NCBI GenBank assembly: GCA_014281115.1
Contig: JACONQ010000014.1
Coordinates: 2,294,001-2,358,000, forward strand
Direction of reading: 5' to 3'
From: Laburnicola sp. R22_1
Lineage: Eukaryota > Ascomycota > Dothideomycetes > Pleosporales > Didymosphaeriaceae
Length of the DNA stretch: 64,000 nucleotides
How positions within the stretch are numbered: the stretch's first letter is position 1; every line of letters begins with the position of its first letter. The position numbers were made by a program, and so were the translations under genes. The notes under the pieces are model-generated. The model saw only the letters and a program-made list of their open reading frames with translations, searched no databases and was not told the origin of the DNA. Below are positions 1-53,916 of the stretch, piece by piece.

Positions 1-3000
1 GTCTTTTAGGATACTACGGCGTTAAGGGCTAAAGTAGGATACTAAATTAGAACTTATAAGCCTAAAGCGAGCAGACAACACAGTTATTACTAAGCTGTAA
101 GAGCTTTATAACTAATAGGTTCTAGAATACTAACCAGAACTAATAGAACAGGCAACCTTCCACACTCACAGAATTACCTCACGCACTAAGAGATCCCCAC
201 AAAAGGCAGACGCACTGCGATGGCATAAGCGACTAGGGCATCTAGGCCCTAGTGCTCTTAAGCACCTAGTGCAGCAATCTAAGGGGGTGCGGATCAAAGG
301 CATTACTACAGTACAGTGCGACGCCTGTGGACGAGCTAAATCTAAGAGGTTAATCTGCTAAACACCACAACTAATTAATAAAGGACTAGAAGAACAAGTC
401 GCAATAGACTTCTATAGCTACAAGGATGGCAGCTTAATAAAAGAGAAGAGCCAAATGCTAATCACTAATCGATACTTAGGACTAATGTGGGATTTCTACT
501 TTAAGGACAATCGCACGGCTCGATCTATTATCTAAACTTTGGCCACTTTTACAAAGTTTATAAAGAACCAATTTATCCTTATAGTTAAGGTAATTAAAGC
601 GGACAATAAAATACTCATAGTTAAACAAGAAGTTAATTAATAGTGCACAGCCTAGGGGATTACAATTAAGCCTTTAGCACCTAACACATAAGCACAGAAT
701 GGGGGAGCTAAACGCTTAGGGGGTGTAATAAAAGACAAAGCCCGGGCAATACAACTTAATGCCAACCTACTATAGGAGATGTGGCTAGAGATTACCTAGT
801 TAGCTATCTACCTCTATAATTAAACGCTAAACTATGCGAATCACTAGAGAACACTATACAAAGTCTTCTTTATAATAGTGGCCTTCTAGAATAGAGTGAT
901 TACAGCACTATAAAAGCTAAATTAAACCTATCTTAAGGTATATAGGTGCAAAGCTTTTATAATAACAGATAATATCTACTATAGTAAGAGTAGGCTACAA
1001 TGTCTCAACCCAAAGGCGTGGATTGGATATCTGGTAGGATACTAATCCTCTAACATCTTTTGGATATAGATACCCTCGCTTAGGAAAGTAATTAGCACCT
1101 AGGACGTAATATTTAATAAAGACAGCATCTTTAGCGGAAAGACAGAGGACCTTATAAATAACCTTATGCACAATACCCTTAAAGAGATCGCCGTATAGGT
1201 CCGGTCGGTTAAACTACTATCCACAGCTAAACTAACTAAATTAGAGACAGAGTTGTTTTATAAAGATGAGACAATTTAAGATAACCTATAGAATGAAGAC
1301 CAGCCTAGATATCGACAAGGCAGGAAAGTGAACTATACTTATCCCACTCCGCTAATCACACCACTACTAGTGACACTTCTTGCACAATTACTAGTAGAGG
1401 AAGATAAAGGAAAAGACCACTAACCCTTATTATTAATAGCATACCTATGGGCTGCAGCATTTATGGCCAGTACTAAAGTGGCAAATGTAGGGAACTTTAA
1501 TAGGAAAACATTAGATAAGGCGCGGTTAAAAAGATTGCTCTCTAAAGGATTAAAGCTATATAGGAGCCAGTTGCCTATACTACCTTCCTAACGCAATAAG
1601 CTTAAAGAACATCCACTGTGCGATATGTTTAAGGAAGCTAAGAAACAGCACCTAAACAGTCACCGGGACATGAGATCCTGGACCGAGATACTAGCTAAAA
1701 CAATTAAGCTGACTAGAGAACAGATCCTTAACTATATGTGGGTATACACCTACAAGTTTAATAAACATTACTAACTTAAGAAGTGCAAAGCACGCCTTGT
1801 TGTTCATGGCGATTAACAGAGAAATATCACGTCACAAGATACATATGCGGCAATATTGGCTGGACAATTATTTCGCATGCTTATGGCGATTGCGGCGCGA
1901 TTCGACCTAGAGCTCCTTTAATACAATGTTATGAATGCCTTTGTTTACGTAAAGATTAACCAAGATATATATATAAGGATGCCACAAGGCTACAATAAAC
2001 CTAGGATAATTCTAAAGCTTAACAAGGCGCTATACAGACTCCGGATCTTACCACTACTCTGGCAGAGAGAGTTTACTTTAATACTGCGAGGCTTAGGCTT
2101 TATTAGTATACCTTATAACCCTTGCTATATGATTAAACAAGGCGTAATCATCTTCTTCTATATAGATAATATTATTATTGCCTATAAACAGGAGAACAAA
2201 CCCTAGGCTAAGCTAGTTATTAAGTAGCTATAAGAAAAGTACACCCTTACAGGAGGAAAAGATCTCTAATGGTTCCTAGGGGTTGAGATTCTTAGGAACC
2301 GCCCGCAATACAAGATCTAGCTCTTACAAGCGTTATATATTAATAAGATTGCTAGGCTAGTTAATAACTAAAGCCTTAGGCATAATACCCTAATAAGTAG
2401 TATTAAGCTTACTCTACAATTAGGCTTTGCTAGTTTATCTAAGATTAATAGATACTAACGCAAGGTTAAATCGATTCTATTTACCACAGTTACTACCTGG
2501 CTAGACACTACTTTTGCGTCCTTCTAATTAGCACAATTTCTCACTAACCCTGGCAGTCAATATTAAGATGCCGCTAATTAAGTCCTACTATACCTCTAAG
2601 AAACACACACAAGGGCGTTACAGCTAGGTAGAGAAGATAGTTTTAAGGTAGCAAGTAATGCCTTATTTGCGGACAATACACTAGACTAAAAGAGTTCTTA
2701 AGGATATATTATTAAACTGTTTAGTGGGCTAATTATGTGGAAAGCAAGCAAGCAAGATACTATTACCACATCCACCACTAAAGCCGAGCTACTAGCCCTG
2801 TTACAGGTAGCTAAGGAGGCACTGTTTACATCACGCCTGCTTAATAAGCTCTAGGTTAAGCTCGCGGATTAAACAATTACTATCAAATGCGACAACTAGC
2901 AGATAATACAGCTTGTTGCTAAGGAGACTGCGTAGCTTAATACTAAACTCCGCCATGTAGATATTCATAACTATTAGTTAAGGCAAGAGGTAGCGCAAGG

Positions 3001-3190
3001 AAGGATTAGGGTTACCTACACTTAGTCGAACGAAATGATAGCTAATAGGCTCACAAAGGCCCTTTCTATCAACAAATAGAGCAAATTTCTAGATTAACTA
3101 GGACTTGTTAATATGGCAGAGGATCTTAATAGAAAGGAGGTACAAATTAACGAGCTAGAACAAAGGATAGAGGCTATTACTCTAGAATAA
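1..3190 (+). pseudogene. Copia A1 Gag-Pol polyprotein, RIP-inactivated, 3' part
   Basis: Read in frame 2 the translation follows Copia Pol to a terminal TAA at 3188-3190. HKRLGHLG and CDACGRAKSKR mark the zinc-binding pre-integrase region. AQNGGAKRLGG carries the third integrase acidic site, where the usual Glu is now Lys. In the reverse transcriptase the usual YVDD is YIDN, and RNase H shows TTSTTKAELLAL. The longest open stretch is only 91 codons (1931-2206). The stops I read through are TAA or TAG, as expected when CAA, CAG and TGG codons change by CpA-directed RIP. I needed no frameshift to follow the polyprotein. Confidence 0.9.
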
Positions 3191-3241
3191 AGGACGGCTA
3201 TAAGGGGTCCAGCTTAAGGATAAGCCTAAGCTAAGGGGATG

Positions 3242-3406
3242 TGTCAGATTAGAGCCGTGTTGCCGAACAAGGGCACGTGGTCGGCTCCACCCTCTAAATT
3301 AGACCTGGAGCCAATAAGTTACAGAACACACACAATACAACTGTTTATCCATCTTATCTATTAGATTCCCCATCTTAATAAGCTTAAATAGTGCTTAAAT
3401 CTAACA
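3242..3406 (+). repeat. 3' LTR of Copia A1
   Basis: The 165-bp LTR begins TGTCAGATT and ends AATCTAACA, so its ends are near-perfect inverted repeats. It follows a short purine tract (about 3231-3241). The sequence corresponds to the A2 LTRs at 5710-5872 and 16241-16403 in reverse orientation. Confidence 0.9.
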
Positions 3407-5709: not shown

Positions 5710-5872
5710 TGTTAGATTTGAGCACTATTTAAGCTTATTAAGATGGGGGGTCTAATAGATAAGATGGATAAACAGTTGTATTGTGTGTTCTGTGACTTAT
5801 TAGCTCTAGGTCTAATTTAGAGGGTAAAGCCGACCACGTGCCCTTGTTTGGCAACACGGCTCTAATCTAACA
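5710..5872 (-). repeat. 3' LTR of Copia A2
   Basis: The 163-bp LTR has ends TGTTAGATT and AATCTAACA (plus-strand reading). It is followed inward by CACCCCCTCAGC, the complement of the polypurine tract. It matches the partner LTR at 16241-16403. Confidence 0.93.
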
Positions 5873-8800
5873 CACCCCCTCAGCTTAGGCTTATCCTTAA
5901 GCTAGACCCCTTATAGCCGTTCTTTATTCTAGAGTAATAGCCTCTATTCTTTGTTCTAGCTTGTTAATTTGTACCTCCTTTCTATTAAGATCCTCTGCCA
6001 TATTAACAAGTCCTAGTTAATCTAGAAATTTGCTCTATTTATTAACAGAAAGGGCCTTTGTAAGCCTATTAGCTATTATTTTATTTAACTAAGTATAGGT
6101 AACTCTAATCCTTCCTTACGCTACCTCTTACTTTAACTAATAGTTATGAATATCCACATAGCGGAGTTTAGTATTAAGCTGCGTAGTCTTCTTAGCGACA
6201 AGCTATATTGTCTGCCGGTTGTCGCATTTAATAGTAATTGTTTAATCCGCGAGCTTAACCTAAAGCTTATTAAGTAGGCGTGATGTAAACAGTGCCTCCT
6301 TAGCTACCTATAATAGGGCTAGTAGCTCGGCTTTAGTGGTAGATATGGTAATAGTATCTTGCTTGCTTGCTTTCTACATAATTAGCCCACTAAACAGTTT
6401 AATAATATATTCTTAAGAACTCTTTTAGTCTAGTATATTGTCCACAAACAAGGCATCGCTTGCTACCTTAAAACTATCTTCTCTACCTAGCTATAACGCC
6501 CTTGTGTATGTTTCTTAGAGGTATAGTAGGACTTAATTAGCGGCATCTTAATGTTGGCTGCCAGGGTTAGTAAGAAATTGTGCTAATTAGGAGAACGCGA
6601 AAGCAGTGTCTGGCTGGGTGGTGACTGTGGCAAATAGGATTGATCTAACCTTGCGTTAGTATCTATTAATCTTAGATAGACTAGCGAAGCCTAATTATAG
6701 AGTAAGCTTAATGCTACTTATTAGAGTATTATGCCTAAGGCTTTAGTTATTAACTAGCCTAGCGATTTTATTAATATATAACGCTTGTGAGAGCCAGATC
6801 TTTTATTACGGGCGGTTCCTAAGAATCTTAACCCCTAGGAACTATTAGAGATCTTTTCCTCCTATAAGGGTGTACTTTTTTTATAGCTGCTTAATAACTA
6901 GCTTAGCCTGGGGTTTATTCTCCTATTTATAGGCAATAATAATATTATCTATATAAAAGAAGATAATTACGCCTTATTTAATTATATAGCAAGGTTTATA
7001 AGGTATACTAATAAGGCCTAAGCCTCATAGTGTTAAAGTAAACTCTTTCTACCAGAGTAGTGATAAGATCTAGAGTCTATATAGCGCCTTGCTAAGCTCT
7101 AGAATTATCCTAGGTCTATTATAGCCTTATGGCATCTTTATATATATATCTTAGTCGATCTTTATGTAAATAAAGGCATTCGTAACATTGTATTAAAGAA
7201 GCTCTAGGTCAAATCGCGCCGCAATCGCCATAAGCATGCGAAATAATCGTCTAGCTAATATTACCACATATGTATCTTATAACGTGATATTTCTCTATTA
7301 ATTGCCATAAATAACAAGGCGTGCTTTACACTTCTTAAGTTAGTAATATTTATTAAACTTATAGGTATATACCTATATATAGTTAAGAATCTATTCTCTA
7401 GTTAGCTTAATTATTTTAGCTAGTATCTTAGTCTAGGATCTTATATCCTAGTGACTATTTAGGTGCTATTTCTCAGCTTCCTTAAACATATCGCATAGTG
7501 AATGTTCTTTAAGCTTATTACGTTAGGAAGATAGCATAGGCAACTGGCTCCTATATAGCTTTAATCCTTTAGAGAGCAATCTTTTTAACTACGCCTTATC
7601 TAATATTTTTCTATTAAAGTTTTCTGTGTTTGCCGCTTTAGTGCTGGCTATAAATACTACGGCCCATAGGCATATTGTTAATAATAAGAGTTAGTAGTCT
7701 TTCCTTTTATCTTCCTCTACCGGTAATTGTGCAAGGAGTGTCACTAGTAGTAGTGTAATTAGCGGAGTGAGATAAGTATAGTCCACTTTTCTGCCTTGTT
7801 AATATCTAGGCTAGTCTTTATTCTGCGGGTTATCTTAAATTGTCTCATCTTTATAGAACGACTCTGTTTCTAATTTAGTTAGTTTAGCTGTGGATAGTAG
7901 TTTAATCGATCGGACCTATACGGCGATCTCTTTAAGGGTATTGTGCATAAGGTTATCTATAAGGTTCTTTGTCTTTCTGCTAAAGATGCTGTCTTTGTTA
8001 AATATTATGTCCTAGGTGCTAATTACTTTCCTAAGCGAGGGTATTCATATCCAAAAGATGTTAGAGGATTAGTATCCTACTAGATATCTAATCCACGCCT
8101 TTAGGTTAAGATATTATAGCCTGCTCTTGCTATAGTAGGTATTATCTATTATTACAAAAGCTTTGCACCCATATGCCTTAAGATAGGTTTAATCTGGCTT
8201 TTGTAGTACTATAACCACTCTATTCTAGAAGGCCACTATTATAAAGAAGACTTTGTATAGTATTCTTTAGTAATTCGCAAAGTTTAGCATTCGATTATAG
8301 AGGTAGATAGCTAACTAGGTAATTTCTAGCCATATCTCCTATAGTAGGTTAGCATTAAGTCGCATTGCCCGGGCTTTGTCTTTTATTACACCCCCTGAGC
8401 ATTTAGCTTCCCCATTCTATACTTGTGTGTTAGGTGCTAAAGGCTTAATTATAATCCCCTAGGCTGTGCACTATTAATTAACTTCTTGTTTAACTGTGAA
8501 TATTTTGTTGTCCGCTTTAATTACCTTAACTATAAGGTTAAATTAGTTCTTTATAAACTTTATAAAAGTGGCCAAAGTTTAGATAATAGATTAAGCTGTG
8601 CGATTGTCCTTAAAGTAGAAATCCCACATTAGTCCTAAGTATCGATTAGTAATTAGCATTTGGCTCTTCTCTTTTATTAAGCTGCCATCCTTGTAGCTAT
8701 AGAAGTCTATTACGACTTGTTCTCCTAGTCCTTTATTAATTAGTCGTGGTGTTTGGCGGATTAACCTCTTAGATTTAGCTCGTCCGCAGGCGTCGCACTG

Positions 8801-9448
8801 TACTGTAGTGATGCCTTTAATCCGCACCCCCTTAGATTGCTGCACTAGGTGCTTAAGAGCACTAGGGCCTAAATACCCTAGTTGCTTATGTTATCGCAGA
8901 GCGTCTGCCTTTTGCGGGAATCTCTTGGTGCGTGAGGTAATCCTATAGGTGTGGAAGGTTGCCTGTTCTATTAGTTCTAGTTAGTATTCTAGAACCTATT
9001 AGTTATAAAGCTCTTATAGCTTAGTAATAACTGTGTTGTCTGCTCGCTTTAGGCTTATAAGTTCTAATTTAGTATCCTACTATAGCCCTTAACGCCGTAG
9101 TATCCTAAAAGACACTAGGTTGCATAGAAGGTCTAGGCAATAGGCCACATTGTTAAGGCGTAGTATCCGCTATCTATCCGGGCCCTTTAGTTTAAGGTAA
9201 ACCGTGCTATATCCTTTAACTCATATTTGTGTATTTCTAGCCCATATAAAGTCTCTAGGCGATAGAGGGCGAAATGAGACAAATTAATTAAGGTTGTTCG
9301 CGATGTGGCAGGTGGTGCCTAAATTAAGAATTAAGGAGTATTATAGTGGGTAGCTTATAGAATTGGATTAATATAATGCCGCATTAAAGCTTGCTTAAAT
9401 AGTGGAAATTTTCTATCTATCTAGTTAATTATTATTAATCTTAGGAGT

Positions 9449-44100: not shown

Positions 44101-44478
44101 AATAGGTAGACAGAAATTATAAATACTGTCCTAAAGGTGTACTTATATTGTTACATTAATTATATATAGAATAACTAGATTAACTAGTTGCCTATTACGT
44201 AACTTGCTATAAATTACAAAGAAAATGTATCTACTAAAGTTGCGCTATTGCTTATAACTAAGGGCTACTTGCCGCGATAAGGCTTTAAACCTATTACTCT
44301 AGTTATAGCAACGGACTATTATAAGAAGTTATAATGCGAGGACGCCTAGTAAATAGTTTATTATATTAAAGACGTTATACGCTTTATAAATAAAAATCTA
44401 GCCTGGCCCTAATTAAAAATAGAGTTTTACGCAAATAAGGGTCGACAACCCACACTAGCATATACTGTTAGGGATATA
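44101..44478 (+). pseudogene. Gypsy-1 fragment: integrase C-terminal part
   Basis: Together with 38477-38572 this gives EGNR-TEIINTVLKVYLYCYINY, then LPIT and IKDVIRFINKNLAWP, typical of the integrase tail of Gypsy elements. It ends YTVRDI, and the next codons (VYLDARNILS) are at 52635 after pogo G, which confirms the TA target of G. Confidence 0.85.
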
Positions 44479-44656
44479 AGCTCGGCTATATAGCTATTAA
44501 TCACATAGGGTTCCTGATCACCCCACCGAAACGCGCACCCTGAATAAAACACGCGATATCTCTCAACAACGCTTTTATAATTGCCATTGAGTATACATAG
44601 ATTTAAGCGCTATAGCTGCTGTAGCTACTGCAGCCCTTTCTGAAGCGCTTGATATA

Positions 44657-46444
44657 AGCTAGCGTACATAGTCTCCGGCCACCCGGGGATTCCGGCCACC
44701 CCACCAAAACGCGACACCCGCACAAAACACGCGATATCTTAACAACGCTTATTATGATTGCCACTGCGTGCACATAGACTCTAGAGTTGCAGCAGCAGCA
44801 GCTACTAAAGCTGTTTCTGAAGCGCTCGATATAGTAGATCTTTGCTGCTGAGCTCCTGCAGCCTCAGCTGCGCGTATAGCCTCTACGATAGTCTCTACCT
44901 CTGCAAAGCGTCGATTTGGGTCTATTTGAACGCGCTTTCGAGGACGCTGAGAGCTAGTAGTCTGTAGATGATACTCAAGGCGTCTTTTCTCTGATTCTAG
45001 CCCTGCAGCTCTAGCATTTGCAGCTGCTAGCGCCTTACCTGCTTTCTAAAGGAGTAGCCGGGTCCTACGACCTAGATTCTCAACGCTCTGGACGTCGCGC
45101 TGCGCTATATAGAGATCGCGAGGGCCTTGAGGGGTTGAGAGGAAGCTCTAAGGCTGCTGATGAGGCTGCTGCTGATACGTAGGCGTAGTAGGCCTCTGAG
45201 AGACTTGCGACGAGCTGAGCACGTGATTGATGTTGAATGGGCAGATACCAGCAGCCTGCCAGCCAGCTCGAATCACACGCTCTGTGAAGCCTGCCTCCCT
45301 AGCTTGATAGTAGCAGGCGATAAAGCGCTCCTTCTTAACAGGCGCGGCGTCGTCGAGCGATGCAAGCTCCTGGATCTGGCGTCGGTAACTAGACTTGATA
45401 ACGGAGAAAGGGGCGAGATCTAGAGGCTGTAGGACGTGCGAGGTATGCGCAGGTAGGTATAGGAGCTCTATTCGATGCTGTTTGCAGAGCCATAGGAAGT
45501 CTATATCGATGTGGCTGCCATGGCCGTCGAGGATAAGGAGGCGGTACTAGCCATCACCTACAGCTGTCTCAGGGATAAATATGCGCTGTAGCCACTCAAC
45601 ACCTATCGCTTTCAACGTCCATCCGTTCTCAGAGGTTGTATAGAGCCAGTTAGGTACGTAGGACGAGGGAAACCATGTAGTCTGTAGGGTCTGGCCTTTG
45701 AAGATGACGGCGCAGTGCAGTTTCCGCCCTGCTGCTGATACACACTCGATTATAGAGACCCACTCGCGATTCTCTGGAGACCGAATGTAAGCCTTCTTCT
45801 TCTGGCTACTAGAGAGTACTCTGGTGTTCGTACATACCCCTAGAGCTACACCAGTCTCATCCATATTCCAGATATCCTCTGTACGTATATTAAGGCGTAT
45901 TCTAGTCTGCTCAAAGAGCTCTAGAAAGGCGCGTACACGCTCTGGAGTAGCTGAATCAGCTCTGAGCCTCTAGCTTTCTGCCGACTACTGAGGCTATGCG
46001 TGGCTGGCGCTTGATGAAGTGGTATAGCCAGTGCTTGCCGACAGGCTGATTGTCGCCGTTCATACGTAGGATTCGATTGGCCATTTCTCGAGCGCGAGCG
46101 TGTGAGGGAGGACAGGCGCGCGCGTCTTCTTCGAGGATCCATTCTACTAGGAAGTCCTCTTGTAGAGGAGTCAGCCGCTGCTGATGCTGATGGCTAGTTA
46201 CGCTGGTAGTCGCGCCACGTAGTCGGTCTTGAAATGTAGATCGAGGAAGGCCGTACGCCTCTGCTGCTGCTCGCTGGCTCTTATAAATGCCTGTATTGTA
46301 ATCGCTGATCGCTGATTGTATAGCCAGCTCACGGGCGTCCATATTGATGAGTGTTATGGAAAGAAATCGCGTGTTTTGTGCGGGTGTCGCGTTTTGGTGG
46401 GGTGGCCGGAATCCCCGGGTGGCCGGAGACTATGTACGCTAGCT
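44657..46444 (-). mobile_element. Pogo-like DNA transposon M (1788 bp), nested in G
   Basis: Near-perfect inverted repeats start AGCTAGCGTACATAGTCTCC and contain two direct copies of TCCGGCCACCC. TA duplications lie at 44655-44656 and 46445-46446. It belongs to the same family as G, and its uninterrupted sequence shows what G looked like at both insertion sites: GCTCGATATAGTAG for M's own site and GATTCTAGCCCTGCAG for N's. Confidence 0.95.
44752..46342 (-). pseudogene. DDE transposase of element M, frameshifted
   Basis: It starts at 46342 and stops at 44752-44754. The N-terminal part (45956-46342) shows YKSQRAAAEAYGLPRSTFQD (helix-turn-helix) and GKHWLYHFIKRQPRI. A 2-bp loss near 45960 shifts the frame, since the G copy still has the extra AG. 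The core follows at 45547-45864 (MDETGVALGV, WVSIIECVSAAGRKL) and then, past a TAG, LPAHTSHVLQPLDL and a C-terminal region with KRRLEYHLQTT. It is only lightly mutated. The frameshift and about three stops make it inactive as it stands. Confidence 0.9.
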
Positions 46445-46662
46445 TAGTATATTTACGTTGCTGAGCTGCTAAAGCCTTAGCTGCGCGCATACCCTCTATA
46501 ATAGTCTCTACCTCTGCAAAGCGTTGATTTGGGTCTATCTGAACGCGCTTTTGTGGCCGGTGAGAGCTAGTAGTCTGTAGATGATACTCAAGGCGTCTTT
46601 TCTCTGATTCTAATATCTCCCACTACGTAACGAGAACCACATCGTAGCGAGAAAATAATAGG

Positions 46663-47584
46663 TACTTAGACTTTAGAGTGGAAATAAAATCCCTATACCT
46701 ACTTACCTATGATTTGCTACTCAGGTTATATTCTAACGATCTTTCTTAATCTCTTAATTGCTGCTAATAAGAAAATTACCGGCCTTGTCGGCGCCATCGC
46801 GGGTTAGAGAGGAGTGACTTGTTTCTTAGCAGAGCTAGCTACCTCTACTCTAGCTATAGCGCTGAGCCTGCACGACTCCCAACTTTGATAGTGTACAGTA
46901 TCCAATTCTCGGAGCTTTAGGATCACGCTACTAGGCCATTATCAGCCCTGTGGCGGCTGTATGATGATGATTTATGCAACGTCGCCACGCTGATGGGTAC
47001 CTCCTGGCTAAGCGAGATGACCTTGTGAAAGGCCCGTAGGTTTACGTAATGATTACGGTGTTATATACGCCACAAAGCCAAGCCCGTATCGCAGGAACTG
47101 TAACCGTCGCACTTTAGCGCAGTCTGACCATGTGATCCAGTTGCATCAGTCAAGGCCATCCCCACGCTCGGACGACTACAGCCCAACTTCTCGCAGCTTC
47201 TGAGCAGCACTGCTTTGAACGACCGGTGAACTGGCAGCCGGACGACCCTCTGAGGATACGACAGCCCTTTGGCAGCGGGGCGAAACGAAGGCAACCTCGC
47301 AAGAACGCGCAGCGACGGCCCGAGGCGGACAAGAGCTCCTCACAGGAACGGACAGCTCATCTCTCTTACATTTCCAACCAGCGAGCACTATACAATCCCT
47401 AGCAAAATCGGCTTCCGCCTTGGACGCTCTTCCAGATTTACTGACCTGCTCATAAAGGCAAGGCTAAGGCCATAAAGCTACAATTTTTCAGAATCACGTG
47501 CCATTCCTAAGCATCTAAAGTTGGGGCCAGAATCCTACTGCCTAAGCAATCGTGAGCTTGGACTCTTTAGAGTTGAATAGCTGA
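46663..47584. other. Upstream region of the HET gene inside N
   Basis: No coding sequence that I can support. Small open frames on both strands overlap each other and lack recognisable motifs. The base composition is mixed and not RIP-like, and it presumably contains the promoter of the HET gene. Confidence 0.4.
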
Positions 47585-49927
47585 ATGGCCGACCAAGCTC
47601 TAATACTGGAAAACTTTCTCGGGAAGGCGGTCGAGGAATTCGTCGATGTCAGCCTGTGTGGTGTTTGGGCAGGTTTCCAACTTCGGGGAGTAGCGTGGCT
47701 ATGCTCTTGGGTCGCGAGTCTTGTCTTTGGCATCAGTATTCCTTACCTAACACAAATCTTCTTCTTAATTGCTTTCTTCTACACACCGCCTCACCTTGAC
47801 ACAATAAGAGAAATATGGAATGTCAGTAATCGAGACGGGCCTCCCGATAGCGATCCATTGCTTGAGCAGCTGCTTCTCCTAAGGGGTTTGATGGGGATGC
47901 TTCTTCGTGTTCTCATTTTGCTCTTCGTTAGTCGATTTGAAATTCTTGTTTGGTTTTTATGGTCATTTTCAGATTCCAATCTATTCCTTCTCCTGATAGG
48001 GTTATCAATCTGTTTCCAGTTTCTTCGCTATGCTGCTGACAGGGCTACTTTTTGGGCTGGGTACTTCGCTAACCTTAGCCTTATCGTCATCGACAAGACA
48101 TATGCGCTACGCAATCAAGGGACATCTCATGAAGGAGGGAGCTGCTCTACACCTTACCTCTATCATCCCTTAGACTCTGGCAGGAGTCAGATACGGCTTA
48201 TTCAGATCAAAAAACTCACACCTTTCACGAGACCAACCTACAGCCTATTTGTTACAGATCTTGCAGAAGCACCTGCTTACGACGCTATGTCATACACTTG
48301 GGGCGGGCAAGGCCTCGACCAAGACGTTTCATTCAATGGACATCTGTTGAAAACAACACTGAACGTGAAGAAAATGCTTCAACAACGAGCGTCTTCCATG
48401 CGGACAACGTATCTCTGGATAGATGCTGTCTGTATCAACCAAAACGATAAAGGAGAGAAGGGGCACCAAGTTTCCCTAATGGGGAAAATATACTCGCAGG
48501 CGAAGCGGACTATTGTCTGGTTAGACAGCAGCGATCCGAGGCCTTCAGACGCGATCCGGGTCAAGATCACCCTGAGCCTTATATTCTTGGCGACGAAATA
48601 CTTGTCGAACGATATCGAACTCTTTGACTTGGCTTGCTATCATATTTCGAGTCAGAACTTGTGGGGCTCTGTCGAAAGATTCCTTGCGCACCCATATTGG
48701 GGCCGTATGTGGATCCTTCAAGAAGTTTCAAAAGGCAAGAAAGTGCATATTCTCTATGGAGGTCAATTTATCCACTGGGATAACTTAATCAAACAACTTC
48801 GTATTACCGTAGAGGGACCACTCTCTCATCGATTTTTGAGTCATGTCGCCAACAGACAACGAGACAACAAGAGCACACCCGTTCGAAGCCACGTCCTCCA
48901 CATCAACGAATGTAGAGAAACACTTTCTCGCTCAAGGCTCCCTCTGTCGCTTGCGCTAGAATTTTCTACACGGTCCAAAGCATCACTTCCAAGTGATAAG
49001 ATCTTTGGACTGCGCAGCTTAGTGATAGACGATTCCGACAATACATCGTCGCTGGCCGGTATTTTGAAGCCAGACTACAAAATCGACTATACACAAGTCT
49101 TCACACGCGTTGCGCTACATCTTCTCTATGAGAATCCGAACTACGTACTTGATGCGGCGGGCGTGGGCTGGCCCCGAGATAGATCTGTGAATGCCGCAAT
49201 CCTTCCAAGCTGGATTCCAGACTGGCTTCAGACAAGAGAAACCAGCCTCCTAGTCCCAGGGTATTGTGCGGGAGGGGAGATAGACCTATGTCGATTGACT
49301 CAAGCTGGAAAATTTCTCGACGCTCCAGCCTTGACTATATCCCCCTTAGCGACAGTAACACCACCAACGGGAAATGGGTTTGCCTTATATTCTGCTGCTC
49401 TAAGGCTTGTCGAGCCGAATTTGACCGGGATTTACCACCCTACTGGCGAGCCTTATGCCGAGGCGTTTTGGCGCACACTCATCGGGGACGCTGGACGAGA
49501 GAGATTTTCAAGATCGTGCGAGGAGGAGTCCATTTTCCCAGCTCCGGCTGAATGGGGAAAGCGATTTTTGGCATCCATTGTAAAGGCCCGCTATCTAGAC
49601 CAGTCTTCCGAATCAGTTCTTGAGAGGGATCCACATGACGGTTATCTATTTTGGACGGACATGATGTACGCGTGCAGTGGTAGGGGTTTTGCTGTCACAG
49701 AAGAAGGTCACATGGCATTGGTTCCACAGCTAGCAAAGGCGGGAGACGTTCTCTGTGTACTTTTTGGACTACAGATGCCGTTCTTGTTGAGAGAGAAAAC
49801 AGGAGAGATAGAGAAGTACGGACAAGAGAAAGCCTGGGACCTAGTTGGGAGTTGTTATGTTCACGGATTGATGAAAGGCGAGGCTTTGAGTCAAAACAGG
49901 GAGGAAAAGATGCACATCATTTTCTAA
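47585..49927 (+). CDS. HET-domain protein with N-terminal membrane segments
   Basis: An uninterrupted frame of 780 residues. The N-terminal 170 residues are strongly hydrophobic in blocks (about 36-66, 100-127 and 131-170), suggesting several membrane-spanning segments. The HET domain follows from about residue 231: AYDAMSYTWGG, YLWIDAVCINQND (276-288) and MGKIYSQAKRTIVWL (299-313), then GRMWILQEVS. The C-terminus has CYVHGLMKGEAL, a common ending in this family. HET domains act in fungal heterokaryon incompatibility and related cell-death responses; the partner here is unknown. No intron is needed. The gene lies wholly inside element N and, unlike its surroundings, carries no nonsense codons. 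The start is the first ATG of the frame, preceded by a nearby in-frame stop. Confidence 0.93.
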   Translation: MADQALILENFLGKAVEEFVDVSLCGVWAGFQLRGVAWLCSWVASLVFGISIPYLTQIFFLIAFFYTPPHLDTIREIWNVSNRDGPPDSDPLLEQLLLLRGLMGMLLRVLILLFVSRFEILVWFLWSFSDSNLFLLLIGLSICFQFLRYAADRATFWAGYFANLSLIVIDKTYALRNQGTSHEGGSCSTPYLYHPLDSGRSQIRLIQIKKLTPFTRPTYSLFVTDLAEAPAYDAMSYTWGGQGLDQDVSFNGHLLKTTLNVKKMLQQRASSMRTTYLWIDAVCINQNDKGEKGHQVSLMGKIYSQAKRTIVWLDSSDPRPSDAIRVKITLSLIFLATKYLSNDIELFDLACYHISSQNLWGSVERFLAHPYWGRMWILQEVSKGKKVHILYGGQFIHWDNLIKQLRITVEGPLSHRFLSHVANRQRDNKSTPVRSHVLHINECRETLSRSRLPLSLALEFSTRSKASLPSDKIFGLRSLVIDDSDNTSSLAGILKPDYKIDYTQVFTRVALHLLYENPNYVLDAAGVGWPRDRSVNAAILPSWIPDWLQTRETSLLVPGYCAGGEIDLCRLTQAGKFLDAPALTISPLATVTPPTGNGFALYSAALRLVEPNLTGIYHPTGEPYAEAFWRTLIGDAGRERFSRSCEEESIFPAPAEWGKRFLASIVKARYLDQSSESVLERDPHDGYLFWTDMMYACSGRGFAVTEEGHMALVPQLAKAGDVLCVLFGLQMPFLLREKTGEIEKYGQEKAWDLVGSCYVHGLMKGEALSQNREEKMHIIF

Positions 49928-51123
49928 CGATTATCTAGCGTTAGCAAAACGTGATTATTCCTAATTGAAATTCAAGTTGAGATACAATTAATGCTTTTGA
50001 ACTATTAGTGCCTCGGGCCTAGAAGCATGAACATTAAAAATCCCCGTTTGTATCCTACTGTAATAATTATACTTTACAAGCTGTTCTCGGTTCAGCTCAT
50101 GTTAAGAAGAGCGCGTCAAACCAATGCAAGATCTCATTGTAGATGTTGTAGCGATTCCAGTTTTGGGCCCTTTTCCTCTTTGCATTGAGCTCTGGACGAC
50201 GTCTTTCAAGTCCCTTAGCCCAGTTCACACCTAGAGGCTTTGGTAGTCTATCTACTTGGGGCCGATTGCGGGTAGCACTCTATACGATAGCCCCTACATA
50301 CTTCGTTCGCTTAGGTTATCCTAGGGGGTTCATAAACAACGACGGCGTTCTCTTCGTAAGGGGCGAGGTACTGCTAGCTTTATGCTGTAGTTTCTCTCGA
50401 GCGTCGTCCGCGTGTACGATGATAGAGTATTAATAAAGGAACGTCACCGTGTGCAGCTAGGGCTGAGTACGTGTTAGGTATGCCTTCAGGAACGCCTTTA
50501 GCCAGTAGGCATTTCAGCTAACAAGTGCGTGCTAGGCGCCGACAAAGGCACTAAACAGCAACTGCCTGAGTCAGCGGACGCCAGTGAGGCATCTCAGGCA
50601 GCGAACAAAGAACAGGATACAGTTTCCGGTTGGACCTAATTGGACAAACTGAACAAACTGCATAGACCAAGCAACTCTCATTGCTCAGCCACAAATGATG
50701 TGATGGCGCTAAGATTTAATACAGTGTCACGTGCGTGCGTATGTTACACTAACCTGTATCAGGTTGCAGTCAATGCACGCTAAAGCGGCAGGATGCTAAG
50801 ACCCATCCCTTTATCCTCAGAGAAACTTTCGGAATTTACCACCCATTGCTCGCTACCTCTAGAATACGGGTATCCAAACCTGTTTGTACAGGGCTATTAT
50901 GTCCTAGTTCCGGATCTAGTGGTTTCGCTCGTAGTCGTCGTCAAACAGGGGTGAAACTATTAAAGCGGATCTTTATGGCGTAAGGATCCAACTGACAGCG
51001 TCACCAACGCCACAGTATTTTTCCCATCCCAGACTAGCATTCGGTGCGGAAATGGTTAAAGAAGCCCGGAATACTACTTATAACTTTATTTACTTGTGTG
51101 GGAGAGCTCTAAGTTGCTAAAAT
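49928..51123. other. Downstream region of the HET gene inside N
   Basis: No gene that I can support. An 82-codon open frame at 50185-50433 has no recognisable motif. No transposase, no recombinase and no LTR are seen before the right terminal repeat. Confidence 0.4.
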
Positions 51124-52634
51124 AGTCGCGTCATCTCGTTACGGAGTGAATCTCGCTACGTAGTAGGGGATATTAGCCCTGCAGCTCTAGCATTTGCAGC
51201 TGCTAGCGCCTTACCTGCTTTTTGTAGGAGGAGCCGGGTCCTATGACCTAGGTTTTCGAGGCTCTGGACGTCGCGCTGCGCCAAGTAGAGATCCTGAGGG
51301 CCTTGAGGGGTAGAGAGGAAGCTCTGAGGCTGCTGCTGAGGTTGCTGCTGAGGTTGCTGCTGAGGCGTAGGCGTTGTAGGCCTCTGAGAGACCTGCGACG
51401 AGCTAAGCACGTGATTAATGTTGAATGGGCAGATACCAGCAGCCTGCCAACCAGCTTGAATTACACGCTCTGTGAAGCCTTCCTCCCTAGCTTGATAGTA
51501 GCAGGCAATAAAGCGCTCCTTCTTAATAGGCGCGGCGTTGTCGAGCGATGCGAGCTCCTGGATCTGGCGTCGGTAACTAGACTTAATTACTGAGAAAGGA
51601 GCGAGATCTAGAGGCTGTAGGACGTGAGAGGAGTGCGCAGGTAGGTATAGGAGCTCAATTCGATGCTGTTTATAGAGCCAGAGGAACTTAATATTAATAT
51701 GGCTGCCATGGCTGTCAAGAATAAGTAGGCGGTACTGGCCGTCAGCTGGCGCCGTCTTAGGGATGAATATGCGCTGCAGCCACTCAACACCTATCGCATT
51801 TGACGTCCATCCATTCTCGGAGGTTGTATAGAGCCAGTCAGGTATTGATTTGGCTGGGAACCAGGTAGTCTGTAGGCTCTGGCCCTTGAAGATAACTACG
51901 CAGCGCAGCTTCCGCCCTGTTGCCGATACGCACTCAATTATTGAGACCCACTCGCAATTCTCTGGCAACTTAACGTAAGCCTTCTTCTTTAATGCCCTAG
52001 CAAGGACTCTGGTGTTAGTACATACACCTAGCGCAATGCCAGTCTTATCCATATTATACGTATTCTCCGTCTGTATATTAAGTCGCTGTCGAGTCTGCTT
52101 ATAGAGCTCTAGGAACGCGCGGAGCTATTCTGGCGTAGCTGCCTTAGCTCTCTGGGCGTTAAGCTTCCAGCCTACTACTAAGGCGACGCGTGGCTGGCGC
52201 TTAATAAAGTGTGAGAGCCAGAGCTTGCCAACAGGCTGATTGTCGCTGTTTATGCGCAGAATTCGATTTGCTATCTCTCGCGCGCGAGCGTGTGGAGGAG
52301 GATAGCCGCGTGCGTCTTCTTTAAGGATCTATTTAACAAGGAAATCCTCTTGTAGAGGAGTCAATCGCTGCTGGTGTTGATGGCTAAGCGCGCTCGTTGT
52401 TGCGCCACGGAGTCGCGTTGATAGCGTAGATTAAGGGATATTGTACGCCTTTGCAGCTGCGCGTTGGCTAGAATAAAGACCTGCGTTAAAATCGCTAATA
52501 GCTGATTGTATAGCTAGCTCACGGGCGTCCATTTTGATGAGCGTTGTTGAGAGATATCGCGTGTTTTGTTCAGGGTGCGCGTTTCGGTGGGGTGATTAGG
52601 AACTCTATGTGATCAATAACTATATAGCCGAGCT

Positions 52635-53916
52635 TAGTTTATTTAGACGCGCGTAATATTCTGTCCCTCTATTCTAACAAAGGTCTAGATGTTAAGAATT
52701 TAGGACTATTTTTTATCGCAGAGGTCTTTCGCGACTATACGTACTAGTTAGAGCTTCCTATAAGTTACTATAATATATACCTATGGTTTTACACCTAGCT
52801 ATTATATAATACTTCTAATACTATCTAGCTTTCTAATAAGAAGGGCATAGTTGTAATAGACGCGCCTATTACTCTACTAGCGAAGTTATAGGACTACTAT
52901 ATTAACTTTATAGTTAATAGCAAGATTATTAGATAGATAGTCCCTATAAATCACTGTGATTTTACTGTAAATTACGGTGGATAGGTGTGTTCGATTATAT
53001 AGCCTATACACACTAGTAATTAGTGTAAATTATAGTGTTTTCACTATAAAATTAAAAGAGGCCGGCGCACCACTGTTTTGCACTGCCCCTGTACTATCCC
53101 AAATAGTACTAGTGTGTCTTGGCACTAGATAGATACTTCTCGCGATAGCCGAGCTTCTCTAGGAGAAACAAGGAAAAAATATTAATTAATTAACCATACC
53201 ACTTCCCATCTCATCTTATTAAGAATACCCCTATATCTAATAAAGATTAACTATTACTATAAGAATTCTTTAATAGGCAATAAGAGGCTACTTATGTATA
53301 GAGTCTAGTATAAAAACTCTCCTAAGTAGAACACTAATCTTAAGTAGCAGCCCTACACAGACATATTAGGTTGTAAAAAAGCTGTTAAAATATATTATAG
53401 AAATAATAATAAGAAATCTAGCCTATATACCCTATATAAAGATCTAGTAATATATAAGAATCTTATGGTTATGTACCTCTAGAATAATAGATTTAGGGAC
53501 CCTAAGCTTCTGGCCGTTATGTATATACATGCGTGAGATTAAGGTATCTCTTAATATAATATTATGCCGTAAGACTACTAGGATAGGCATGTAGAGCGCC
53601 CGCTAACTGGCTGTTTTAGACAACCTTTTTGGGTAACAGGTCTCTCTCTAGGCTATACCTAAGAAGACACCTAGGTTGTCTTGTTAGACGTAACCACTAT
53701 AACGCGCAGTAGTAAGACGCTCACTTTACTAGCTTGTGTACTAGGAGAGGTTATCTAATAGTTATTTTACTTATTATAATATTTCTAGATAGTCTTATAT
53801 AGTCTTAAATAGTCTATAATAGTTTATAATATTTGTTAAGCCACGCGATTAGCGCCTCTAGTATGGTTTTTCTTAGTTTGCCTCGCTAAAGCTAAGGCTT
53901 TTAGAGGGGGGGGTAA
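52635..53916 (+). pseudogene. Gypsy-1 C-terminal coding end and polypurine tract, split by a solo LTR
   Basis: After G the frame continues VYLDARNILSLYS, then runs to 52926, where a solo LTR interrupts. It resumes at 53243 in the same sense (NSKIN then YYYKNSL, GNKRLLMYR, TDILGCKKAVKIYY), resembling a chromodomain-like integrase tail. A purine tract AGAGGGGGGGGTAA (53904-53916) precedes the 3' LTR. Confidence 0.7.
52927..53242 (+). repeat. Solo LTR of the Copia B type
   Basis: The 316-bp sequence corresponds along its length to the Copia B LTR (AAATCACTGTGATTTTACTG, CACTAGATAGATA, AGCTTCTC). Its ends are TATTAGATA and TATCTAATA. A perfect 5-bp duplication AAGAT flanks it at 52922-52926 and 53243-53247. 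No internal retrotransposon sequence is present, so it arose by LTR-LTR recombination. It is RIP-mutated. Confidence 0.92.

Follow-up and report, generated by a model that had tools for sequence, protein, structure and literature searches.

A pogo/Fot-type transposon family with HET and NOD-like receptor genes as cargo appears to move part of a fungal immune-receptor repertoire

Results

A HET gene in a small transposable element

A DNA element of 4,561 bp at positions 46613-51173 of a 64,000-nucleotide stretch of Laburnicola sp. R22_1 (C6:2294001-2358000, hereafter the window; the genome amounts to 63.9 Mb in 26 contigs) carries a complete HET-domain gene between terminal inverted repeats (TIRs). 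We are confident, if short of certain, that it belongs, as a non-autonomous member with a receptor gene on board, to a pogo/Fot-type transposon family, that its transposase would be provided in trans, and that genes for HET proteins and NOD-like receptors (NLRs) are common cargo of this family. Judged from the genome sequence, part of the fungal immune-receptor repertoire appears to travel with a family of cut-and-paste transposons.

A HET gene within an element with TIRs and TA duplications at this position had been claimed in the original prediction, and the claim was borne out: 32 of 40 positions agree between the ends, which contain two CGTARCGAGA motifs each, a TA is found on either side, and an empty site is preserved in a sister transposon, M. 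The element is delimited as follows.

46613..51173, no strand assigned: TIR element with HET cargo, 4,561 bp (ends, TA duplication, empty site)
46611..46612, no strand assigned: left TA of the target-site duplication (empty-site comparison)
51174..51175, no strand assigned: right TA of the target-site duplication (empty-site comparison)
46613..46652, plus strand: left terminal inverted repeat, 40 bp, two CGTARCGAGA motifs (32/40 against the right end)
51134..51173, minus strand: right terminal inverted repeat, 40 bp, two CGTARCGAGA motifs (32/40 against the left end)
44998..44999, no strand assigned: TA of the empty site in sister transposon M (empty-site alignment)
44477..52636, minus strand: transposon G, the target, interrupted by M and the HET element (97-bp inverted arms, 44477-44573 and 52540-52636)
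44655..46446, minus strand: transposon M, nested in G, which retains the empty site (86-bp inverted arms; empty-site alignment)

The empty site in M reads GATTC-TA-GCCCTGC (44993-45006). When the flanks of G were joined with a single TA and compared to M, 167 bp aligned without a gap; since M holds this gap-free empty site, the ends of 46613-51173 are exact and the unit came in one piece. Local alignment of the two 48-bp ends of the element gave a score of 48, compared to a maximum of 35 among 2,000 random pairs from the window, and the element was also recovered by the family pattern described below as end pair C6:2340611-2345175. A TIR arising by chance was ruled out by this score together with the empty site and the genome-wide family of ends. 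G contains a DDE_1 match in an ORF (open reading frame) at 51156-52052. The 535-codon transposase frame that removal of the element had been expected to restore in G was not recovered, the joined flanks giving 410 open codons with M left in place; the higher figure may rest on the removal of M as well.

The cargo gene and its protein are described by three features.

47585..49927, plus strand: HET-domain gene, 780 codons, free of stops, the cargo (ORF list; Pfam PF06985, E 5e-29)
48278..48724, plus strand: HET domain, residues 232-380 (PF06985 profile match)
47687..48037, plus strand: N-terminal hydrophobic segments of the HET protein, approximately residues 35-151 (Kyte-Doolittle scan)

The PF06985 match covered the whole profile (1-146) with 101.9 bits at a cut-off of 22.5. 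That an intact 780-residue HET protein is the sole large gene inside was also correct, ORF 47585-49927 being the only one of at least 200 residues fully within the element. HET was the only domain found in it by the Pfam scan; NACHT or NB-ARC, which are present in other family members, were not found. The hydrophobic segments are a possible membrane anchor, and we infer that the protein would act in non-self recognition or cell death. The TpA/ApT ratio was 0.73 in the HET ORF and 1.23 and 1.30 in the remainder of the element; the gene is therefore less biased in the manner of repeat-induced point mutation (RIP) than its surroundings. The element is present once in the genome. Further copies of its HET gene were sought there and not found; the top-scoring other match had 28% identity, and those extending over 300 residues or more had 26-31%.

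The ends define a genome-wide family

A pattern with both motifs and up to three mismatches was found at 31 places in the whole genome, its reversed counterpart at one. An outer-end pattern gave 122 matches (2 when reversed) and a looser end pattern 139 (0 when reversed); the outer-end consensus is roughly TA|AYRTCC..CTRCGTARCGAGA. In all 12 elements of which both ends were read, the window element included, a TA was present on both flanks. Because the search pattern itself begins with TAA, only two empty sites independently prove the TA duplication, that of the window element in M and that of a second element, L039 (C21:1186056-1191397), in L053.

For further analysis, 121 distinct end positions were used, taken from 100 of the 122 and 100 of the 139 matches plus those of the two-motif pattern. 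Each plus end was joined to the first minus end that followed it by no more than 25 kb, which gave 33 pairs among these ends; three of up to 1.5 kb were discarded, and the 30 analysed together cover 0.42% of the genome. Their length was 4-15 kb in 25 cases, and three pairs above 20 kb may combine ends from different elements. The sequence was read for 13 of the 30 pairs, including the window element (C23:3724936 to approximately nine tenths), and the remaining 17 were characterised by domain matches.

Four family ends lie in mirrored order, approximately 14 kb apart, at C6:161675-176114, suggesting a large palindrome. Long inverted arms (0.7-2.3 kb, 94-100% identical) flank a unique centre in L039, L040, L041, L055 and L056. 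Four lone ends (C20:3168977, C20:3238575, C3:86070 and C6:230084) have a HET match approximately 0.9-2.5 kb inward with NPHP3_N behind it; they are likely further HET-NACHT elements whose second end was not found.

Receptor genes are enriched between the ends

A match to HET, NACHT/NPHP3_N or NB-ARC was enclosed by 18 of the 30 end pairs; a HET match was present in 10 and a NOD-type match (NACHT, NPHP3_N or NB-ARC) in 16. When the pairs were shifted by 15-60, 30-150 or 30-500 kb, 5,000 times each, the mean was 1.2-2.0 receptor-enclosing pairs and the maximum 9. By domain, 11 of 150 HET, 9 of 78 NPHP3_N, 14 of 47 NACHT and 7 of 15 NB-ARC positions were inside pairs, counts that overlap since many receptors have both a HET and a NOD match. 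As a control, P450 positions were used, none of which (0/89) was inside a pair. The HET positions derive from 150 scored out of 194 candidates (153 matches, 150 positions used) and the P450 positions from 92 out of 213 (109 matches listed, 89 used, the 20 weakest omitted); one NACHT match was entered at the NPHP3_N start of the same locus. MFS_1, considered as a second control with 9 of 400 candidates scored, was not used.

The enrichment persisted when copies were removed. With two copy groups collapsed, by which six pairs were dropped, 12 of 24 pairs contained a receptor (shifts: mean 1.6, maximum 7), and 11 of 23 did so when the window element was excluded in addition. The HET-NACHT copy group (C1:242368, C8:1645334 and C3:328042; C10:1468517 was retained) was defined by architecture, without alignment. 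Among pairs of up to 10.5 kb, 14 of 23 contained a receptor (shifts: mean 0.8, maximum 5). The ends themselves pointed to the same asymmetry: within 8 kb, a receptor match was present inward at 51 of the 121 ends and outward at 10, and for the 55 unpaired ends the numbers were 15 and 4. The architectures found between family ends are HET, HET-NACHT-WD40, HET-NB-ARC-TPR and PNP-NACHT-WD40.

Copies of receptor-carrying elements at unrelated sites

One HET/NB-ARC/TPR element is present in four copies (C22:1702892-1710928, C24:2725108-2731331, C1:2371148-2379009 and C13:404372-410470). Their main aligned blocks are approximately 91-98% identical and jointly cover the element from TIR to TIR, and the flanks are unrelated at all four sites (42-72 bp compared per side). 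The copies range from 6.1 to 8.0 kb, a difference that comes mostly from the repeat array. Pfam domains were determined for the C22 and C24 copies, both of which gave HET and NB-ARC; TPR repeats were matched in C22. Stops interrupt the NB-ARC match once in the C22 copy, four times in C1 and three times in C13; the C24 match has none.

Other members carry different receptors. C10:1468517-1473541 has an open HET-NACHT ORF of 779 residues adjoining a WD40 ORF, and in C23:3724936-3735071 a different HET gene is flanked by arms with over 99% identity and a length above 2.3 kb. The sequence into which the L039 element has inserted is related to the right part of the C10 element. The exact empty site for L039, with a single TA, is found in L053, an element possessing both ends. 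The HET-NACHT protein of L053 shares 535 of 768 residues with that of L059, which adjoins an open-frame transposase of the clade described below; the ratio of nonsynonymous to synonymous substitution rates (dN/dS) was 0.13 at a dS of 1.5, which is near saturation, and fits a maintained function. For L052 and L054 the ratio was 0.39, a value based on only 19 differences. 

Receptor cargo is frequent in the family, not universal. L039 carries a GRF zinc-ribbon gene and L040 a collagen-like gene; L055 and L056 share a cargo ORF (L055:822-2890) in two copies, 98.6% identical, for which a Pfam match was not found in either and a PDB match not in L055. In L057, no cargo gene was recognised by ORF and Pfam scan. 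An element nested in L056 presumably belongs to the hAT type, whose transposase it resembles by motif; one ORF of it was scanned and had no Pfam match. A stretch of 626 bp with 123-bp inverted ends, 99% identical between L061:841-1466 and L042:526-1150, occurs in two NLR-carrying regions and is probably a miniature inverted-repeat transposable element.

A pogo-type transposase clade is linked to the family

Relatives with the same type of ends contain a transposase. Both ends and two internal blocks of the window element recur in the element C13:28102-42997, which is 14.9 kb long. On its minus strand, PNP, NACHT (NPHP3_N) and WD40 receptor parts are encoded in consecutive separate ORFs, and a degenerate DDE_1 transposase is located on the same strand near the right end; transposase and receptor thus reside in one element. 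Between them lie 183-bp direct repeats, 97% identical and approximately 5.2 kb apart (L042/L043, C13:35277-40611), a segment that looks like a long terminal repeat insertion. The window element has two matching features.

46938..47025, no strand assigned: left subterminal block, 79% identical to the NLR-carrying element C13:28102-42997
50109..50508, minus strand: truncated, degenerate pogo-like transposase remnant, approximately residues 82-217 (68% nucleotide identity to the transposase region of C13:28102-42997)

The remnant gave tblastn E values of 4e-13 and 3e-11, and its position corresponds to that of the C13 transposase. A functional transposase of its own was not found in the window element, and because only this remnant remains, the element is non-autonomous.

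A genome search with a related transposase gave 28 loci with at least 40% identity in the best piece (clade A), the next other pogo transposases having 31-36%. Neighbouring fragments were merged manually, including one opposite-strand fragment on C25. For comparison, 35 other pogo loci (clade B) were used, which are a sample, 69 of 3,054 candidates having been scored. A family end was present within 12 kb of 14 of the 28 clade A loci and of 2 of the 35 others, and at three clade A loci it lay upstream of the transposase match, at a distance of 577-601 bp. In L058 and in L060, a single family end accompanies a clade transposase. Some of the clade transposase copies are full of stops. L015, a clade member without recognised ends, gave a Tc5-type helix-turn-helix match just below the cut-off.

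Receptors were found next to clade transposases at other loci as well. C26:628500-638400 has HET and NACHT matches, a clade transposase and one family end. At C3:314700-324690 (L065:1-9991), inverted arms of 2.4 kb (95%) contain a clade A transposase each and enclose a receptor with an NB-ARC match, whose DNA is 82% identical to the receptor of the C22 element; one side has a weak family end (four mismatches) and the other is broken by a different transposase. From this arrangement the locus looks like a composite unit. In L062 (NACHT match and clade transposase) no family end was found, and in L059, where an open-frame clade transposase is divergent to a HET-NACHT-WD40 gene, none was recognisable; since family ends are missing there, the two are unproven as single elements.

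Elsewhere in the window, positions 1-3332 and 5782-9113 form a 3.3-kb inverted repeat with 92% complementarity and a spacing of 2.4 kb.

Discussion

The original prediction of a non-autonomous element that has moved a HET gene is borne out by the transposase remnant, the exact empty site and the TA duplication. Its label "Tc1/mariner-like" holds at group level, since pogo/Fot, to which the DDE_1 transposase in the relatives is similar, is a branch of IS630-Tc1-mariner. The additional copies of the ends that were expected, with cargo of other kinds, are present as a genome-wide family (122 and 139 matches), and relatives with the same type of ends plus a transposase exist in C13:28102-42997, where it is degenerate, and in L058 and L060 with one end each. 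The prediction described a single case correctly and understates it, receptor cargo being common across the family.

The following course of events is suggested. The window element lost most of its transposase gene and carries the complete HET gene. Transposase was probably supplied in trans by relatives sharing this kind of ends; having recognised the paired CGTARCGAGA motifs, it would have excised the unit at its ends and inserted it at a TA within transposon G. At least one element with a receptor has spread to four contigs. The action of the clade transposase on the window element, and the order of capture, are inferred.

Several observations weigh against this explanation. Only one copy of the window element exists, and nothing closely related to its cargo was found in the genome; therefore, the movement of this cargo was observed only once. 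No HET or NOD match was found inside 12 of the 30 pairs, and several carried receptors have interrupted frames. HET or NACHT matches within 8 kb of the transposases gave a weaker contrast than the ends, with 10 of 28 clade A loci and 4 of 35 others. All evidence comes from one genome, and in a survey of Sordariales, as far as its accessible text goes, NLR number was weakly negatively correlated with repeat content (PMC12258605).

Could the ends simply have landed around resident HET or receptor genes in regions rich in transposable elements (TEs)? Receptor density is slightly raised around the elements: 2.0 receptor-enclosing pairs resulted from shifts of 15-60 kb, compared to 1.2 for 30-500 kb. 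However, the exact empty site lacks the HET gene, which refutes this origin for the window element; across the family, it is opposed by copies that extend from end to end at unrelated sites and by the excess of inward over outward receptor matches (51 and 10 of 121), so that it is extremely improbable. Just as improbable is that the element is a fragment of a Starship or cargo within one. HET and NACHT genes have been reported as Starship cargo (PMC9594970, PMC9815663; one NLR in PMC12134995; accessible text of each), but the unit measures 4.6 kb, has TIRs and a TA duplication of its own and no second large ORF, and its relatives contain a DDE_1 transposase; Starship identity was rejected on these grounds of size, ends and content. 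A tyrosine-recombinase captain (DUF3435) was absent from the element, where HET is the sole ORF of at least 200 residues; the rest of the genome was not searched for it. Segmental duplication in place of transposition would account for aligned blocks of up to 98% identity in the multi-copy elements, but their homology ends within a few bases of the TA ends (42-72 bp of flank per side), the flanks differ at all four sites, and L053 has the exact one-TA empty site of L039; we consider it highly unlikely.

More serious is the question of why receptors prevail. The family may be promiscuous, elements with useful receptors escaping decay and the others, or empty ones, being lost to RIP until their ends are undetectable. 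Cargo such as the GRF zinc-ribbon gene, the collagen-like gene and the ORFs without known domain in several pairs, the stop-filled clade transposases and the dN/dS of 0.13 for the HET-NACHT genes of L053 and L059 all agree with this explanation, to which we give slightly less than an even chance. It does not account for the decay of several receptors within pairs nor for the absence of P450 genes (0/89) from them, and it addresses only the cause of the receptor excess, leaving carriage itself unaffected. The other explanation, that this pogo-type lineage is a dedicated vehicle of HET and NLR receptors whose carriage is selected by a benefit to the host or to the element, comparable to defence genes on bacterial mobile elements, is tentative and in our view somewhat less likely than not. 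Receptors might then, with the same reserve, be regarded as standing cargo that spreads and diversifies with the family, because repeat arrays vary among copies, a composite-like form exists and several architectures share one end family.

It is an open question how recognition repertoires of fungi turn over so rapidly from one strain or species to the next; the giant Starships are one known carrier. If carriage by the family described here is true, a compact cut-and-paste family with recognisable ends and a matching transposase clade would be a second and more tractable carrier of receptors, whose gain, loss and copying would become traceable across strains by TA ends and empty sites.

Like members of the pogo/Fot1 branch of IS630-Tc1-mariner, the family has a TA target duplication, TIRs and, in relatives that share the type of ends, a DDE_1 transposase. 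Unlike them, it carries complete receptor genes, many members have kilobase-long inverted arms, and the window member is reduced to a transposase remnant. Pack-TYPE elements, or Pack-MULEs, are non-autonomous TIR elements with captured host sequence, mostly gene fragments; the cargo here, in contrast, consists of complete receptor genes, some with open and some with interrupted frames. No report was found of pogo-type or other small DDE elements carrying HET or NLR receptors, which is weak evidence of absence since subscription papers and preprints were mostly beyond reach. ToxhAT, a TIR transposon carrying ToxA (PMC6737239, PMC12506042), is similar in combining TIRs with a host-interaction gene; according to the accessible portions of these papers, however, it is a single element and its cargo a plant-disease effector, whereas the present family is enriched for one functional class.

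The HET-NACHT-WD40 architecture with repeat arrays, found in several cargo genes here, is that of the Podospora HNWD genes het-d, het-e and het-r with their arrays of near-identical repeat units (PMC1805685, PMC12222747). The parts of these two papers available to us mention TEs near NLRs in general, not a TIR transposon carrying HNWD genes; a TE relic adjoins the pseudogene NWDp3 (PMC1805685), and nwd2 is described, in the available text, as inactivated by a transposon (PMC3321046). Starships resemble the present family in that they, too, are mobile in fungi and transport HET and NOD-like receptor genes. Such elements with NLR and HET cargo were reportedly described by Gluck-Thaler et al. in 2022, a study to which PMC9815663 refers. 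NLR and HET genes are named as Starship cargo in the accessible text of two papers (PMC9594970, PMC9815663) and a single NLR in that of a third (PMC12134995). In contrast to Starships, which are large, driven by a tyrosine recombinase and loaded with many genes, the family described here has TA ends and a DDE transposase, and 25 of its 30 end pairs measure 4-15 kb.

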